From: JAHJDO01 sp030671985 [NCBI: bacterium] | Lineage (GTDB): Bacteria; JAHJDO01 | Assembly (NCBI GenBank): GCA_030671985.1 | Contig: DAOVHI010000047.1 | Coordinates: 1 to 9,303, forward strand | Direction of reading: 5' to 3' | Length of the DNA stretch: 9,303 bases | Part shown: one piece after another, positions 3,937 to 9,303 of the stretch | Position numbering within the stretch: the stretch's first letter is position 1 | Layout of the letters: each line of letters opens with the position of its first letter | The notes under the pieces: generated by a model | The model's database searches: none | Told to the model about the DNA's origin: nothing | The model's input: only the letters and a program-made list of their open reading frames with translations | Made by a program: the position numbers and the translations under genes

Positions 3937-3943
3937 ATGCAGA

Positions 3944-3971
3944 TTGTATTTTAAAGAAATAAGTTTACAAT
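3944..3971 (+). promoter_or_regulatory. Possible weak sigma70 promoter ahead of gatA
   Basis: In the 60-base gap between trkH and gatA, TTGTAT (3944-3949) and TACAAT (3966-3971) are separated by 16 bases. The -10 matches 5 of 6 consensus positions but the -35 only 3 of 6. A second TACAAT lies at 3980-3985. The region is AT-rich, so chance matches are likely; gatAB may equally be read through from upstream. Confidence 0.3.
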
Positions 3972-3996
3972 AATGTGTCTACAATCAATAGGGTAG

Positions 3997-5469
3997 ATGG
4001 ATATGAAATTACATACACTCTCAGCTCATGAACTTGCCAAACTGCTTATCGGTAGAGAGGTGAGTTCTGAGGAACTTACCAAAAAATTGTACGGTCACAT
4101 AGAGAAAACCGATGGAGAGATTGGGGCGTATATTACCCTAACAAAAGACATAGCCATTGAACAGGCAAAGAAAGCTGATAAAAGGATAAAGGAGAAAAGG
4201 GATATTGGGCAGTTAACAGGGATTCCGATTGCAATAAAAGACAACATGTGTATTAAGGGCGTTTTGACTACATGCGGGTCTAAAATGCTCGGTAATTTTG
4301 TGTCTCCATATAATGCCACGGTAATAAACAAGTTGAGAGAGAACGGGTTGGTATTTCTGGGCAAAACAAACATGGATGAATTTGCTATGGGTTCGTCTAC
4401 GGAAACTTCTTATTTTAAAGTTACCGGAAATCCGTGGAATACAAATTTTATTCCCGGCGGTTCCAGCGGAGGATCTGCGGCAGCAGTTGCGTCTGATCAG
4501 GCAATTTTGTCTATTGGTTCTGATACCGGTGGTTCTATTCGCCAGCCTGCATCGCATTGCGGTATAGTTGGTATGAAGCCCACTTATGGCAGAGTGTCAA
4601 GGTATGGGCTTGTAGCTTTTGCCTCGTCTCTTGATCAAATAGGCCCTTTGACCAAAGATGTTCAGGACTGTGCTGCGCTTCTTGAAGTAATAAGCGGGTA
4701 TGATCCTATTGATTCAACATCATTACGTATGACTTCGCCGGATTATATGAGCTTTCTCAATAAGGACATCAAGGATATTAAAATTGGAGTTCCAAAGGAG
4801 TATTTTATAGACGGGATTGATAAAGATGTAGAATTGTCTGTGAAAAGGGCAATCGAAAAATTAGAAAGTCTTGGAGCTAATATTGAAGAGGTATCTCTGC
4901 CTCATACCGAGTACGCTGTTGCGACATATTATATTATTGCTCCTGCAGAGGCGAGCTCAAATCTGGCGAGATATGACGGAGTTAAGTATGGATACAGGGC
5001 AAAAATGGAGAGTGCTGATAAAGGTTTATTGGGTATGTATGAGAATACAAAAAAAGAGGGTTTTGGCATGGAAGTAAAACGCAGAATAATGCTTGGAACT
5101 CACACATTAAGTTCAGGTTATTACGACGCTTATTACTTAAAAGCGCAGAAAGTAAGGACCCTTATCAAACAGGACTTTGATAATGCCTTTAAGAAATTTG
5201 ATCTCTTAGTTACTCCAACATCTCCTACTCCTGCGTTTAAGATGGGGGAAAAAATAGATGACCCTCTGCAAATGTATCTATCCGATATATTTACAATACC
5301 AACTAATTTAGCAGGTTTGCCTGCTATCTCTATTCCATGCGGGGTCAGTAAAAATGGACTGCCAATAGGTTTGCAGCTCATAGGTAACTATTTTGATGAA
5401 GGAAGGATTTTACAGGCTGCGCATGCCTTTGAGCAAAGCACAAATTTTCATAGGAAAAAGGCGTTATGA
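3997..5469 (+). CDS. gatA: Glutamyl-tRNA(Gln)/aspartyl-tRNA(Asn) amidotransferase subunit A
   Basis: This cytoplasmic amidase subunit of GatCAB hydrolyses glutamine and passes ammonia to GatB, which amidates misacylated Glu-tRNA(Gln) or Asp-tRNA(Asn). It has 490 residues, the usual length. The amidase-signature triad is complete: Lys81 in GIPIAIKDN, cis-Ser156 in PGGSSGGS and Ser180 in GSDTGGS. The spacings of 75 and 24 residues equal those I recall for S. aureus GatA (Lys79, Ser154, Ser178). The start is uncertain: ATG 3997 is given, but ATG 4003 (beginning [11 protein letters not shown]) is better placed 9 bases after AGGG at 3990-3993. It overlaps gatB by ATGA, so translation of the two is coupled. 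The odd point is that gatC, the small subunit often next to gatA, is not in the window and cannot fit in the 60 bases upstream. Confidence 0.97.
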
Positions 5470-6890
5470 ATTACGAAACGGTGATTGGGCTGGAAGTTCA
5501 TGTTCAGCTTTCAACAAAAACTAAAATATTCTGCGGATGCAGTACGAATTTCGGCGCCTCTCCAAACACTCAAACATGTCCTGTTTGTCTGGGGCTTCCG
5601 GGCGTGCTTCCTGTTTTGAATAAAGAAGTAGTTCAGTGCGCTATTAAAACAGCATTAGCAACTAATTGTAAAGTTGTTGAGAAATGCATATTTCATAGAA
5701 AGAACTATTTTTATCCTGATCTTCCAAAGGGGTATCAGATATCGCAGTATGATATACCTGTTGGAGAAAATGGCTGGATTCAGATTGAGATCGATGAGAA
5801 GGCGAAAAAGATACGCATAACCAGAGTTCACATGGAAGAAGATGCCGGAAAACTAATTCATTCTGAAAATTCAAGAAGCAGAGTTGATTTAAATAGAGCC
5901 GGTGTGCCATTACTTGAGATTGTCTCAGATCCTGATATAAACTCTCCTGCGGAAGCGTATCAATATCTAGTATCTTTAAAACAAATACTGGAATATCTGG
6001 AGATTTCCGACTGCAATATGGAAGAAGGCAGTCTTCGCTGTGACGCAAATATTTCACTAAGGCCGGTAGGGGAGACTAAACTTGGCACAAAGACAGAACT
6101 AAAGAATATGAACTCGTTTAAGGGAGTTCAGAAAGCTCTTGAATATGAGATCGTACGTCAGAAAAACCTGCTTGGTAAAGGAGAAAAGATAATTCAGGAA
6201 ACACTACTATGGAATGCTAACCTTAACAGAACGGAATCTATGAGGAGCAAAGAGGATGCCCATGATTATAGATATTTCCCTGAGCCTGATCTGGTGAATA
6301 TTATTATTGACGAAGAATGGATGAGTAAAACGAGACGAAGTCTCCCTGAACTTCCTCAAGCGCGTAGAGGTAGATTGAAAAACGAGTATGGGCTTTCTGA
6401 TTATGACGTTGAAGTGCTTACAATAGATAAAAATGTTGCGGATTATTTTGAAGAGTGTTCAAAATATTTTCCAAATTGTAAAATGATTGCAAACTGGATA
6501 ACAGGCGATGTTTTGGCGGTTCTTAAGGATAAAAAGATTAATATTAATAATCTTAATGTGTCTCCGGAACAATTAGGAGGACTGCTTGATTTAATTGAGA
6601 ATGGAACAGTGAGCGGGAAGATTGCTAAAGACGTTTTTCTGGATATGGTATGTACCGGGCAAGACGCAAAACAGATTGTGTCGGGAAAAGGACTTGTTCA
6701 GCTTTCAGACGAGGGAGAACTGGTTTCGATAATTGATAAGATTATTAAACAAAATCCAAAACCGGTTAGTGATTTTAGGGCAGGAAAACAGAAGGCATTA
6801 GGTTTTCTCGTAGGTCAAATTATGAGAGAGACAAAGGGCAAAGCAAACCCTCAGCTTGTGAATAAAATGTTAAGAGAAAAATTGTCCTAA
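5466..6890 (+). CDS. gatB: Glutamyl-tRNA(Gln)/aspartyl-tRNA(Asn) amidotransferase subunit B
   Basis: This is the tRNA-binding kinase/transamidase subunit of GatCAB: it activates the glutamyl or aspartyl group of mischarged tRNA with ATP and amidates it with ammonia from GatA. It has 474 residues, full length. Visible features are the N-terminal [12 protein letters not shown], four zinc-type cysteines (Cys23, Cys25, Cys38, Cys41), [16 protein letters not shown] (81-96), HMEEDAGK (122-129), and [17 protein letters not shown] (141-157). These are followed by a cradle domain to about residue 295 and a helical plus YqeY-like tail (about 330-474) that holds the tRNA elbow. The ATG overlaps the gatA stop (ATGA), with AGGA 10 bases upstream. 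The presence of GatAB suggests that glutaminyl- or asparaginyl-tRNA is made indirectly in this organism; which one cannot be decided here. Confidence 0.97.
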
Positions 6891-6906
6891 AAATCTCGAA
6901 GATTGT

Positions 6907-6934
6907 TTTGATATTAATCAGGAGTTTGATATTA
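6907..6934 (+). repeat. Two 10-base direct repeats upstream of the PII gene
   Basis: TTTGATATTA occurs exactly at 6907-6916 and again at 6925-6934, with a period of 18 bases. The first copy covers the proposed -35 and the second covers most of the proposed -10. This could be a tandem binding site for a regulator, or a by-product of AT-rich promoter sequence. No known operator is recognised. Confidence 0.5.
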
Positions 6935-6935
6935 T
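6908..6935 (+). promoter_or_regulatory. Probable sigma70-type promoter of the PII-gdh-glmS cluster
   Basis: TTGATA (6908-6913) and TATTAT (6930-6935) each match 5 of 6 consensus bases and are 16 bases apart. Transcription would begin near 6942, leaving a leader of about 25 bases that holds GGGAG (6952-6956), 9 bases before the ATG at 6966. It lies in the longest intergenic gap of the window, where the function changes from tRNA amidation to nitrogen sensing. I see no GG-N10-GC sigma54 site here. Confidence 0.5.
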
Positions 6936-6965
6936 ACGCAAGAATGAAAAAGGGAGAAAGTAATT

Positions 6966-7307
6966 ATGTTAAAGAAAATTGAGTGTATCGTTCAGCCGTT
7001 TAAATTAAAAGAGATAAAAGAAGGTTTCAAAGAAATAACTGTTGATGGAATGACAATTACTGAGGTAAGCGGTTGTGGGAAACAAAAAGGGCATCTAAAA
7101 AACGTTAAAAATAATGAATCTATCAATTTCCTGCCGAAAGTAAAGATAGAGATTGTTACTGAGGAAGAAAGAGTTGAGGATATAATTGATGTAATACAAA
7201 AGCTTGCAGGAACAGGACAGATTGGTGCAGGAAAGATATTTGTACTTCCTGTTGAAGACGTAATACGTGTTAGAACGAGAGAAAGAGGAAGAAGCGCAAT
7301 AGAATAA
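6966..7307 (+). CDS. PII-family nitrogen regulatory protein with atypical T-loop
   Basis: This is a small cytoplasmic trimeric signal protein that binds ATP/ADP and 2-oxoglutarate and controls partner proteins through its T-loop. At 113 residues it has the family length. The core is well kept: IVQPFKLKEIKEG (8-20), TITEVSGCGKQKGH (30-43) with Gln40, FLPKVKIEIV (55-64) with Lys58, the B-loop GTGQIGAGKIF (82-92) with Lys90, and VIRVRT (99-104) with Arg101 and Arg103. The T-loop tip (44-54) reads LKNVKNNESIN. It is one residue shorter than in E. coli GlnB and lacks the uridylylated Tyr51; Glu is at that number. It differs from both GlnB and GlnK, so I give no symbol. No amtB is beside it. It ends in tandem stops (TAATAA) 19 bases before gdh, which suggests a shared transcript. 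Confidence 0.93.
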   Translation: MLKKIECIVQPFKLKEIKEGFKEITVDGMTITEVSGCGKQKGHLKNVKNNESINFLPKVKIEIVTEEERVEDIIDVIQKLAGTGQIGAGKIFVLPVEDVIRVRTRERGRSAIE

Positions 7308-7315
7308 TAACTAAT

Positions 7316-7320
7316 GGAGG
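7316..7320 (+). promoter_or_regulatory. Ribosome binding site deciding the gdh start
   Basis: A perfect GGAGG ends 6 bases before ATG 7327. A GTG directly upstream (7324) is in frame and would add one residue; ATG is preferred for its codon and its spacing. Confidence 0.75.
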
Positions 7321-7326
7321 TAGGTG

Positions 7327-8571
7327 ATGGCGTTTAATCTGTGGCACAACGCGTTAGAACTTTTTGACAATGTATCGAAAAAAATAAATCTGGACGAAGT
7401 AGCGCATAAAAGACTAAGTAAATGTGTGAGAGAGTTAACGGTTTCTATTCCTGTAAAATTGGATAATGGTGGTTTTGAGGTGTTTACAGGTTACAGGGTT
7501 CAGCACAATATACATCGCGGACCGTCTAAAGGCGGAATTAGATTTCATCCTGACGTAACTTTGGATGAAGTCAAAGCATTAGCAATGCTTATGACATGGA
7601 AGTGCGCCGTTGTCGGTATCCCATACGGCGGAGCAAAAGGCGGAGTCATCTGTGATCCGGCTAAGATGTCAATAGGAGAAATAGAAAAACTTGCAAGAAG
7701 ATACACCTCGGAAATAATAACGATAATAGGTCCTGAGAAAGATATTCCTGCTCCTGACATGAATACAAATCCTCAGGTCATGGCGTGGATTATGGATACA
7801 TACAGCATGGATAAGGGTTATGTTGTTCCCGGCGTGGTAACAGGAAAACCAATATCCATAGGCGGTTCTCAGGGAAGGGAAGAAGCGACAGGAAGAGGCG
7901 TCATGTACACAACGTTAAATACACTTAAACATTTTAATATGGATATAGAGCACACGTCTGTCGTTATTCAGGGCTATGGAAATGTTGGAAAAGCAACTGC
8001 TGAACTTCTTTATAAAGAGGGCTGCAAAATTGTAGGTGTTGGGGATGTTTATGGAAGCATCTGTAATCCTCATGGATTGGATATAACAAAGCTTAGCAAG
8101 CATTGGGCTGACACAGGCAGTGTGATTAAATATAAGGACGCAGACAGTGTAGAGAACAAGGATCTCCTTGAGTTAGAATGCGATGTTTTGATACCTGCTG
8201 CTTTGGAAGGACAGATAAGAGAGGATAATGCTGAAAAGATTAAAGCGAAGATTATTATTGAGGCTGCAAATGGTCCGGTAACTCCCGGGGCAGACAATAT
8301 TCTAAGACAAAAAAATATATGTGTAGTTCCTGACATTCTGGCAAATGCAGGAGGAGTAACTGTTTCATATTTTGAATGGGTGCAGGGGCTACAGAGTTAT
8401 TTCTGGAGTAAGAGGGAAGTTAATCTCAAGCTGAGAGATATTATAACAAAGGCGTTTTACGATGTTTTGGCGATATCGGAAAAAGAGAATGTTGATATGA
8501 GAATGGCCTCATATATGCTTGCTGTAGGCAGAGTGGCAGAGGCTGTAAAAATAAGAGGGCTATATCCATAA
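7327..8571 (+). CDS. gdhA: Glutamate dehydrogenase, short hexameric type
   Basis: This cytoplasmic enzyme converts 2-oxoglutarate, ammonia and NAD(P)H to glutamate, reversibly. Its 414 residues fit the hexameric clostridial/thermophile class. Substrate and catalytic residues are in place: Lys68 (RGPSKGGIR), Lys92 (MTWKCA), catalytic Lys104 (GGAKGG) and Asp144 (PAPDMNT). The spacings equal those I recall for Clostridium symbiosum GDH (Lys89, Lys113, Lys125, Asp165). The dinucleotide fold starts at VVIQGYGNVG (212-221), with Asp240 at the end of the next strand, followed by NAGGVTVSYFEW. NAD versus NADP use cannot be settled from this. The ATG at 7327 follows GGAGG. A PII gene lies 19 bases upstream and glmS 3 bases downstream, which points to a role in nitrogen assimilation. 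The symbol gdhA is used broadly; gudB or rocG naming is possible. Confidence 0.96.
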   Translation: MAFNLWHNALELFDNVSKKINLDEVAHKRLSKCVRELTVSIPVKLDNGGFEVFTGYRVQHNIHRGPSKGGIRFHPDVTLDEVKALAMLMTWKCAVVGIPYGGAKGGVICDPAKMSIGEIEKLARRYTSEIITIIGPEKDIPAPDMNTNPQVMAWIMDTYSMDKGYVVPGVVTGKPISIGGSQGREEATGRGVMYTTLNTLKHFNMDIEHTSVVIQGYGNVGKATAELLYKEGCKIVGVGDVYGSICNPHGLDITKLSKHWADTGSVIKYKDADSVENKDLLELECDVLIPAALEGQIREDNAEKIKAKIIIEAANGPVTPGADNILRQKNICVVPDILANAGGVTVSYFEWVQGLQSYFWSKREVNLKLRDIITKAFYDVLAISEKENVDMRMASYMLAVGRVAEAVKIRGLYP

Positions 8572-8574
8572 ATT

Positions 8575-9303
8575 ATGTGCGGAATTATAGGATATATAGG
8601 TTTTCGTAAAGCAGTTCCGGTGATTATTGAAGGTTTGAATAAGCTGGAATATCGCGGCTATGATTCATCAGGTATTGCTGTCCTGGAGGGTGGTGCTCTA
8701 AAAAGATTTCGAGCAGAAGGAAAGATAAACAAGTTAGAAAAAAAGATTTGTAAAAAGAATTTGTCAGGAAATATAGCATTAGGTCATACCAGATGGGCGA
8801 CTCATGGAAAACCGTCCGAAGAGAATGCTCATCCGCACACCGATTGCAATAAACGCCTGGTAGTGGTTCATAACGGGATCATAGAAAACTATCTTAAGCT
8901 TAAAACCCAGCTCGTCTCAGAAGGGCATAAGTTTGAATCCGAAACCGATACGGAGGTAATAGCTCATCTAATAGAGGACAACATAAGCGAAGGATTACTT
9001 GAATCGTTAAGAATTACTTTGAGCAAAATAAACGGCTCTTATGCATTAGCTGTAATTAGCGAAGACGAGCCTGATAAGATAGTCGTTGCCCGTTCTAAAA
9101 GTCCTTTAATTATTGGTCTGGGAAGCGGCGAGAACTTTATAGGTTCAGATGTTCCTGCCTTTCTGAATTATTCCAGACGAGTAGTATATTTGAAAGATGG
9201 AGAAATAGGTGTACTAACCAAGGATAAAGTAAAGATTTATAAAGGAGAAGTTGAGAAAAAATTCAAAAGCGTATCGATAAAATGGGATAGCGCTATGGCG
9301 GAG
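8575..9303 (+). CDS. glmS: Glutamine--fructose-6-phosphate aminotransferase, N-terminal glutaminase domain (3' end outside window)
   Basis: This cytoplasmic enzyme makes glucosamine-6-phosphate from fructose-6-phosphate and glutamine, the first step to UDP-GlcNAc for peptidoglycan and lipopolysaccharide. The frame stays open to the last base; 243 codons are seen of an expected 600 or so. It starts MCGIIGYIG, so Cys2 becomes the N-terminal nucleophile after methionine removal. Other class II glutaminase marks are EYRGYDSSG (25-33), HTRWATHG (71-78), HNGIIENY (99-106), SETDTEVIAHL (122-132), INGSYALAV (152-160) and FIGSD (188-192). The sugar isomerase (SIS) domains lie outside. The start is 3 bases after the gdh stop with no strong ribosome site, so translation is probably coupled to gdh. 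PurF and AsnB share the glutaminase fold, but the LEYRGYDSSG and SETDTEVIAHL signatures point to GlmS. Confidence 0.95.
   Translation, partial: MCGIIGYIGFRKAVPVIIEGLNKLEYRGYDSSGIAVLEGGALKRFRAEGKINKLEKKICKKNLSGNIALGHTRWATHGKPSEENAHPHTDCNKRLVVVHNGIIENYLKLKTQLVSEGHKFESETDTEVIAHLIEDNISEGLLESLRITLSKINGSYALAVISEDEPDKIVVARSKSPLIIGLGSGENFIGSDVPAFLNYSRRVVYLKDGEIGVLTKDKVKIYKGEVEKKFKSVSIKWDSAMAE

Follow-up and report, generated by a model that had tools for sequence, protein, structure and literature searches.

A PII protein with a shortened T-loop forms a conserved gene module with glutamate dehydrogenase and is probably its dedicated regulator

The PII gene carried by the window, that is, the whole stretch of 9,303 nucleotides analysed here, lies directly ahead of a glutamate dehydrogenase (GDH) gene, and this PII-gdh pairing is a conserved module. 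The two genes recur together in several little-known bacterial lineages, the PII proteins and the GDHs each form a clade, Tyr51 is lost from the PII proteins, GlnD was not found in the 18 genomes searched, and the linked GDHs carry a helix motif. Because the short-loop PII adjoins gdh and the linked GDH has a distinctive surface patch, PII probably controls GDH directly. In our preferred reading, which we hold to be probable, the short-loop PII has the neighbouring gene's GDH as its dedicated target, docking on the GDH hexamer and responding to ATP/ADP and 2-oxoglutarate rather than to uridylylation.

The window corresponds to contig G000:C137 of a genome of 1.25 Mb in 152 contigs that is 92% complete. 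Along its + strand, gatA and gatB are followed by the PII gene (6966-7307), gdh (7327-8571) and glmS (from 8575); trkH, gatA, gatB, gdh and glmS were assigned by annotation, and the lspA-, lgt- and trkA-like genes upstream by reading only. The 19-base gap between the PII gene and gdh (7308-7326, + strand) contains a GGAGG ribosome-binding-like sequence, and in the scan it held no terminator-like site. The gdh start is the ATG at 7327, 19 bases past the PII stop codon, with the GTG at 7324 as an alternative in-frame start. A promoter-like sequence upstream of the PII gene (6908-6935, + strand; 10 of 12 consensus positions) is the best of 8 promoter-consensus matches in a promoter and terminator scan in which 7.6 were expected by chance, so that the matches come in chance numbers. 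Directly before gatA (3937-3996) there is no gatC-like ORF, and trkH ends 60 bases upstream. The PII-gdh pair often lies amid genes resembling those of glutamine amidotransferases or of glutamine synthesis (window 3997-9303; L036, L037, L041, L190, L194, L239); such neighbours are gatA/gatB and glmS in the window, by annotation, and glnA, nadE, guaA, pyrG, carB and purL elsewhere, by eye only.

For comparison, a collection of 84,980 species was scanned, the best 80 of 186 PII loci were compared, and further genome searches added loci. All fetched loci together yielded 151 distinct PII sequences that were long enough, 31 with a short and 120 with a normal T-loop, the latter being the best matches to the query and not a random draw; a fragment of a short-loop PII (L165, G386) was excluded from the counts.

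The 113-residue product of the PII gene (6966-7307, + strand) is a member of the gdh-linked clade. It matches PF00543 with 104.8 and 105.5 bits in two profile searches (cut-off 25) and also matches two NCBIfam GlnB/GlnK equivalog models, both below their cut-offs. Its AlphaFold model has the PII fold (pLDDT 80.6), and all 50 PDB matches listed are PII or GlnK chains with query TM-scores of 0.72-0.80, confirming a known fold. Its sequence has all of the residues that serve nucleotide and 2-oxoglutarate binding in PII proteins. Across the short-loop set, K58, E62, G87, G89, K90 and R101 are invariant (31/31), Q40 is kept in 30 of 31 (Arg in L208) and R103 in 29 of 31 (Ser in G340 and G395), and T30 is Ser in 17 of 31. 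Ligand sensing may differ in G340, G395 and L208, since these lack Arg103 (G340, G395) or the equivalent of Gln39 (L208).

The T-loop (residues 41-57; 7086-7136, + strand) sets the window protein and its relatives apart. The stretch flanked by the equivalents of E. coli GlnB Gln39 and Lys58 comprises 17 residues in every one of the 31 short-loop PIIs and 18 in every one of the 120 normal-loop PIIs. The window protein lacks Arg47 and Tyr51: residue 51 in its own numbering is Glu, and it contains no Tyr anywhere. The RGSEY context that surrounds Ser49 in cyanobacteria is missing as well. Tyr51 is missing throughout the short-loop set (31/31); some Tyr falls within residues 43-57 in 19 of the 30 gdh-linked PIIs, mostly at 43. 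The short loop has a frequent pattern of its own, comprising Pro49 (19/31), Asn50 (23/31), Lys/Arg51 (24/31) and Lys54 (22/31). In the B-loop, clade comparison singles out residue 88 (7227-7229, + strand), where the window protein has Ala instead of the usual Asp; this residue is Ala or Ser in 31/31 short-loop PIIs and Asp in 120/120 normal-loop PIIs. In all, 24 alignment columns separate the short-loop clade, of which 11 lie in the T-loop, two (80 and 88) in or near the B-loop and four in the C-terminal stretch, three regions known as partner-facing surfaces of PII; the remaining seven columns lie outside the loops and count against reading the signature as a partner surface. The PROSITE uridylylation-site and C-terminal patterns each match none of the 31 short-loop PIIs, as against 108 and 116, respectively, of the 120 normal-loop PIIs. 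The first-pass annotation had described this PII gene as followed by gdh 19 bases on, and its product as having a conserved ligand-binding core, a T-loop one residue short with Glu replacing the modifiable Tyr51, and no match to the cyanobacterial Ser49 context; all of this is borne out, with a few exceptions to the core elsewhere in the clade.

Linkage to gdh follows the loop type. A gdh gene lies directly downstream on the same strand of 30 of the 31 short-loop PIIs, and the 31st (L207, G556:C46) sits at a contig end where the downstream sequence is unreadable. None of the 120 normal-loop PIIs has this arrangement, at least 500 bases being readable downstream of 114 of them and less downstream of the other six. 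Chance pairing was rejected on this contrast between 30 of 30 readable short-loop PIIs and 0 of 120 normal-loop PIIs. The 30 linked PIIs span 28 genomes from the window's genus (4), Aerophobetes, NPL-UPA2, Actinomycetota, two CSMAG bacteria and the class of G340 and G395; the G391 locus contains 15 N and an interrupted gdh frame, and in G340 gdh runs off the contig. With G391 left out, the spacing between the two genes ranges from an overlap, which is 4 to 14 bases long according to the start codon taken, up to 89 bases.

A profile of the linked PIIs scored 178-194 bits in seven genomes of a 385-genome broad sample (the genus four, G031, G178 and G340) and at most 148.2 bits in other genomes among the matches listed; T-loop and neighbours were inspected there at the loci of the best-scoring matches only. 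In an even draw of 396 Actinomycetota genomes, 14 matched at E 1e-45 or better, and gdh came next at 13 of these 14 short-loop loci, the 14th lying at a contig end. From the counts in these two samples it follows that the short-loop PII is rare yet widely scattered. The module is present in 5 of 17 genomes of the phylum shared by G031 and G178, and the class of G340 has only two genomes in the collection. Searching in the reverse direction, a PII gene was found upstream of gdh in six of the best 30 GDH loci, all in module-bearing genomes, and none was seen in the other 24, where one could be missed in L221, L235 and L237 because just 521, 160 and 29 bases, respectively, are visible upstream of gdh.

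The short-loop PIIs form one clade (SH-aLRT 98) even with the T-loop columns left out, in a quick-search tree built from the complete set of 30 linked sequences plus 50 randomly drawn others. The linked GDHs likewise form one clade (SH-aLRT 97), in a quick-search tree that sets 27 of them against the nearest unlinked GDHs (24) and a paralogue rather than against all GDHs; the linked GDHs of G340, G391 and G398 were too incomplete for the 27-sequence set. Pairwise distances of PII and GDH agree over the 27 pairs (r 0.76; 0 of 2000 permutations, Mantel test), an agreement that co-inheritance alone would predict; near-identical genus members are included in both trees and in the Mantel test. Since the clade has a single origin, the linkage does not represent 30 independent events, and the evidence lies in its persistence amid changing neighbours: 28 upstream neighbours fall into 17 families and 13 downstream neighbours into 10, counted over mechanical ORFs of at least 90 aa, a few of which are perhaps not genes. 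A fixed synteny block was rejected, as the pair persists while its neighbours change and so moves as a unit. Two genomes, G396 and G389, each have two complete PII-gdh pairs, and the pair therefore duplicates as a unit.

On the enzyme side, the 414-residue GDH (7327-8571, + strand), a member of the linked clade, matches PF00208 and PF02812; its model is closest to GDH 1b26 (TM 0.92), and by sequence and model it appears to be of the hexameric Thermotoga type. Helix 362-387 of the model (8410-8487, + strand) holds both the largest constraint gain of the linked GDHs and their motif, and R363, L367, R370, D371 and K375 on it form the proposed PII docking patch. All 27 linked GDHs, and none of the 25 unlinked ones, contain the motif R-x-V/I-N/D-L/I-x-L/P-R/K-D/E-I/V, which was written from these same sequences. 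Out of sample, its key residues (R363, L/I367, R/K370, D/E371) occur together in 0 of 22 further unlinked GDHs, paralogues in G000, G002, G031 and G340 included, and the motif is present in the one interrupted linked GDH (G391) outside the 27; R363 is found in one of the 22, Tyr at 367 in one, and Arg or Lys at 370 in nine. Position 367 is Leu or Ile in all 27 linked GDHs and is never L, I, V, M, F, W, Y or C in the 25 unlinked ones.

We compared constraint column by column between 24 linked GDHs (three near-copies dropped) and the 25 unlinked ones. The gain in the linked GDHs is largest at residues 363-377, a value reached in 1 of 5000 column permutations. This test is not specific to the helix, because residues 274-288 (8146-8190) contrast nearly equally in the opposite direction, being more conserved in the unlinked GDHs (0 of 2000 permutations); with the mean removed, the two stretches stand at 0.85 (363-377) and 0.81 (274-288), neither reached in 200 label shuffles. 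On the model, the constraint gain along helix 362-387 points about 161 degrees away from the buried side, by a weak test (225 of 5000 shuffles), and an exposed Leu between two Arg on an otherwise polar face looks like a docking site. Alignments of the linked GDH to mammalian GDH end at residue 360, near where animal GDH chains rise into the antenna; the placement of helix 362-387 at the pole of the hexamer is our assumption from known GDH structure and from this alignment end. The window's own genome encodes a second GDH (G000:C135:3120-4328; L239), 48% identical; its gene lies between ones resembling pyrG and carB and has no adjacent PII gene, and the protein lacks the helix motif.

The first-pass annotation had proposed a PII dedicated to this GDH, and had named as evidence to the contrary the same T-loop mostly beside amtB or glnA, or the lack of a conserved gdh link. 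A PII tree read with gene neighbourhoods, as it had suggested, instead has the short T-loop tracking with an adjacent gdh in one clade, every one of the 30 readable short-loop PIIs standing beside gdh, and the link recurs in Aerophobetes, NPL-UPA2, Actinomycetota, the window's genus and other lineages. Its proposal is thus considerably strengthened by the linkage, the clades and, independently, the confinement of the motif to linked GDHs.

Other parts of the nitrogen system were sought in the carrier genomes, including the glnD genes and further PII copies for which the first-pass annotation had advised a search. GlnD (PF08335) was not found in any of 18 incomplete genomes searched, namely 16 distinct module carriers, one duplicate (G394 = G178) and G001, and the same search was positive in 3 of 14 control genomes; G001 is of the window's genus and 62% complete, and the module was not found in it. 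With GlnD not found and Tyr51 absent, the classical Tyr51-GlnD switch therefore appears to be missing together with its target residue. AmtB (PF00909) was present in 3 of 16 genomes searched, one of the three being a fragment, and in 0 of 5 from the window's genus; G340 and the later Actinomycetota genomes lay outside this set. A short AmtB remnant with a stop codon (G393:C172:13823-15340), some 400 bases before glutamine synthetase, suggests loss of the ammonium channel. Glutamine synthetase was found in 15 of 18 genomes, G002-G004 giving weak matches only (75-79 bits).

The window's own genome has no second PII above the family cut-off. A weak PII-like protein in it (G000:C151:7492-7815; L002, L245 3478-3819) scores 23.2 bits against the cut-off of 25, its gene is flanked by permease-like and cation-antiporter-like ORFs, and it has counterparts in all five genus genomes at 22-24 bits; apart from four of the same genus, no genome in the relatives sampled is closer than domain level. 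G391 and G340 each have a second PII of normal loop length, beside amtB (G391, C143) or glnA (G340). Since a normal-length PII coexists with it there, the short-loop PII is a separate specialist in these two genomes. The normal-length PII of G340 (L163, G340:C19), which adjoins glnA, has a T-loop without the EY motif (YRGVIHQVNL), and a neighbouring ORF reads as ammonium-transporter-like.

Could the pairing serve co-expression only, with the short-loop PII acting elsewhere, on glutamine synthetase, NadE or nearby glutamine amidotransferases? The gatA, gatB and glmS genes near the pair in the window would fit, as would, from ORF reading only, the glnA-like and nadE-like genes at L190 and the glnA-, carB- and guaA-like genes at L037, and an interaction of PII with NadE is known (PMC7196632). 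However, gdh is the sole neighbour kept amid 17 upstream and 10 downstream families, and the helix motif is confined to linked GDHs, being missing from the paralogues in G000, G002, G031 and G340; we consider this explanation unlikely. The T-loop could also be a relic, Tyr51 and Arg47 having been free to drift once GlnD and AmtB were lost and little specific PII function being left. The outcome of the GlnD (0/18) and AmtB (3/16) searches agrees with such a course, as does the loss of a ligand residue in a few members (Q40 in L208; R103 in G340 and G395). Against it, the loop is fixed in length (31/31) with its own frequent pattern at Pro49, Asn50, Lys/Arg51 and Lys54, the residues K58, G87, G89, K90 and R101 are invariant, and G391 and G340 keep a normal-length PII besides the short-loop one next to gdh. 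Decay of the T-loop through loss of function was set aside because of that fixed length, and the relic explanation as a whole strikes us as very improbable.

It is also conceivable that the GDH patch has another role, in hexamer stability, in binding another partner or in cofactor control, and that its overlap with the linkage reflects shared ancestry. The linked GDHs are one clade, so any trait of the clade would coincide with linkage, and the stretch 274-288 differs almost as strongly in the reverse direction. The trait in question, though, consists of a hydrophobic residue that is exposed, with Arg flanking it, where the face is normally polar, and this explanation accounts for the patch but leaves the linkage unexplained; of the explanations considered here it seems to us the least plausible.

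Returning to a short-loop PII that regulates the adjacent GDH, we infer the following for the contact, its stoichiometry and site, the effector logic and the direction of control. The PII core for binding ATP, ADP and 2-oxoglutarate would be retained, and the T-loop tip that serves AmtB plugging and GlnD uridylylation would have been replaced by a short form fitted to GDH. Each pole of the GDH hexamer might receive a PII trimer, aligned with the three-fold axis and with its T-loops toward the patch, the contact being made on the exposed face of helix 362-387, where animal GDHs bear their regulatory antenna. By comparison with known PII complexes, the contact would be weakened by 2-oxoglutarate together with ATP and promoted when 2-oxoglutarate is low or ADP high. 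Bound PII would then, most likely, restrain reductive amination when nitrogen is plentiful, an outcome that we place somewhat ahead of activated deamination; restraint of amination by the low-2-oxoglutarate form is proposed by analogy with GlnK-AmtB, and its sign is a guess. As 2-oxoglutarate is also a GDH substrate, the carbon/nitrogen balance would be sensed by the pair directly at the enzyme. Going further, and with slightly more doubt than conviction, we propose that this PII subfamily is an external allosteric subunit of GDH, in which two trimers cap the hexamer poles at the antenna site and read 2-oxoglutarate and ATP/ADP without a covalent switch, making GDH a new class of PII target and the pair a portable module of candidate phyla and part of Actinomycetota.

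The short-loop PII resembles canonical GlnB/GlnK (E. coli GlnB; closest solved sequence 2eg1) in fold, PF00543 membership, most core ligand residues and length, but differs in having 17 rather than 18 T-loop residues, no Tyr51 or Arg47, a replaced Asp88, no match to either PROSITE pattern and a place beside gdh, in genomes where GlnD was not found in the search and AmtB in 3 of 16. GarA/OdhI, a small FHA-domain phosphoprotein that controls GDH in Actinobacteria, offers a likeness, in that a small protein controls GDH in Actinomycetota, but it is not a PII. A group termed PII-NG, reportedly defined by Sant'Anna and colleagues in 2009, is said to have its own sequence signature and metal-transport neighbours, whereas the neighbours here, by eye, are of another kind. 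In work attributed to Tomita and colleagues in 2019, Thermus thermophilus GDH is said to be complexed with an adenine phosphoribosyltransferase homologue and activated by AMP and leucine; this is alike in that a bacterial GDH is complexed with a separate nucleotide-binding protein, but the regulator family is unrelated and that GDH is hetero-oligomeric.

The best precedent is the GlnZ-NadE2 pair of Azospirillum, in which a PII gene is clustered with an enzyme gene and gene pairing led to a proven interaction of the proteins under 2-oxoglutarate control (PMC7196632). It differs in that the enzyme is another one, GlnZ is uridylylated, and the pairing is called frequent and not tied to one PII form (PMC7196632). 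The antenna of animal GDH is a regulator inserted into the enzyme (PMC11050691, PMC9570180), whereas here the regulator would be a separate protein. The first-pass annotation had mentioned a PII-GDH contact in haloarchaea, which stays unconfirmed: GDH did not turn up in a term search of one GlnK paper on haloarchaea (PMC3831643). No report of PII control of GDH was found among the matches listed in a search of open-access titles and abstract openings, a body of text in which subscription papers are mostly not included.

Few bacterial signal proteins have been studied as much as PII, and the metabolite that it senses is the very one used by GDH. With a dedicated pair, the T-loop, the target surface and the effectors could all be tested in a clean system of two genes, and such a pair may reveal how nitrogen is controlled where GlnD, and in most of the searched genomes AmtB, was not found. 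If the proposed docking site is right, bacteria and animals would act on GDH at one and the same site, though with unrelated devices.
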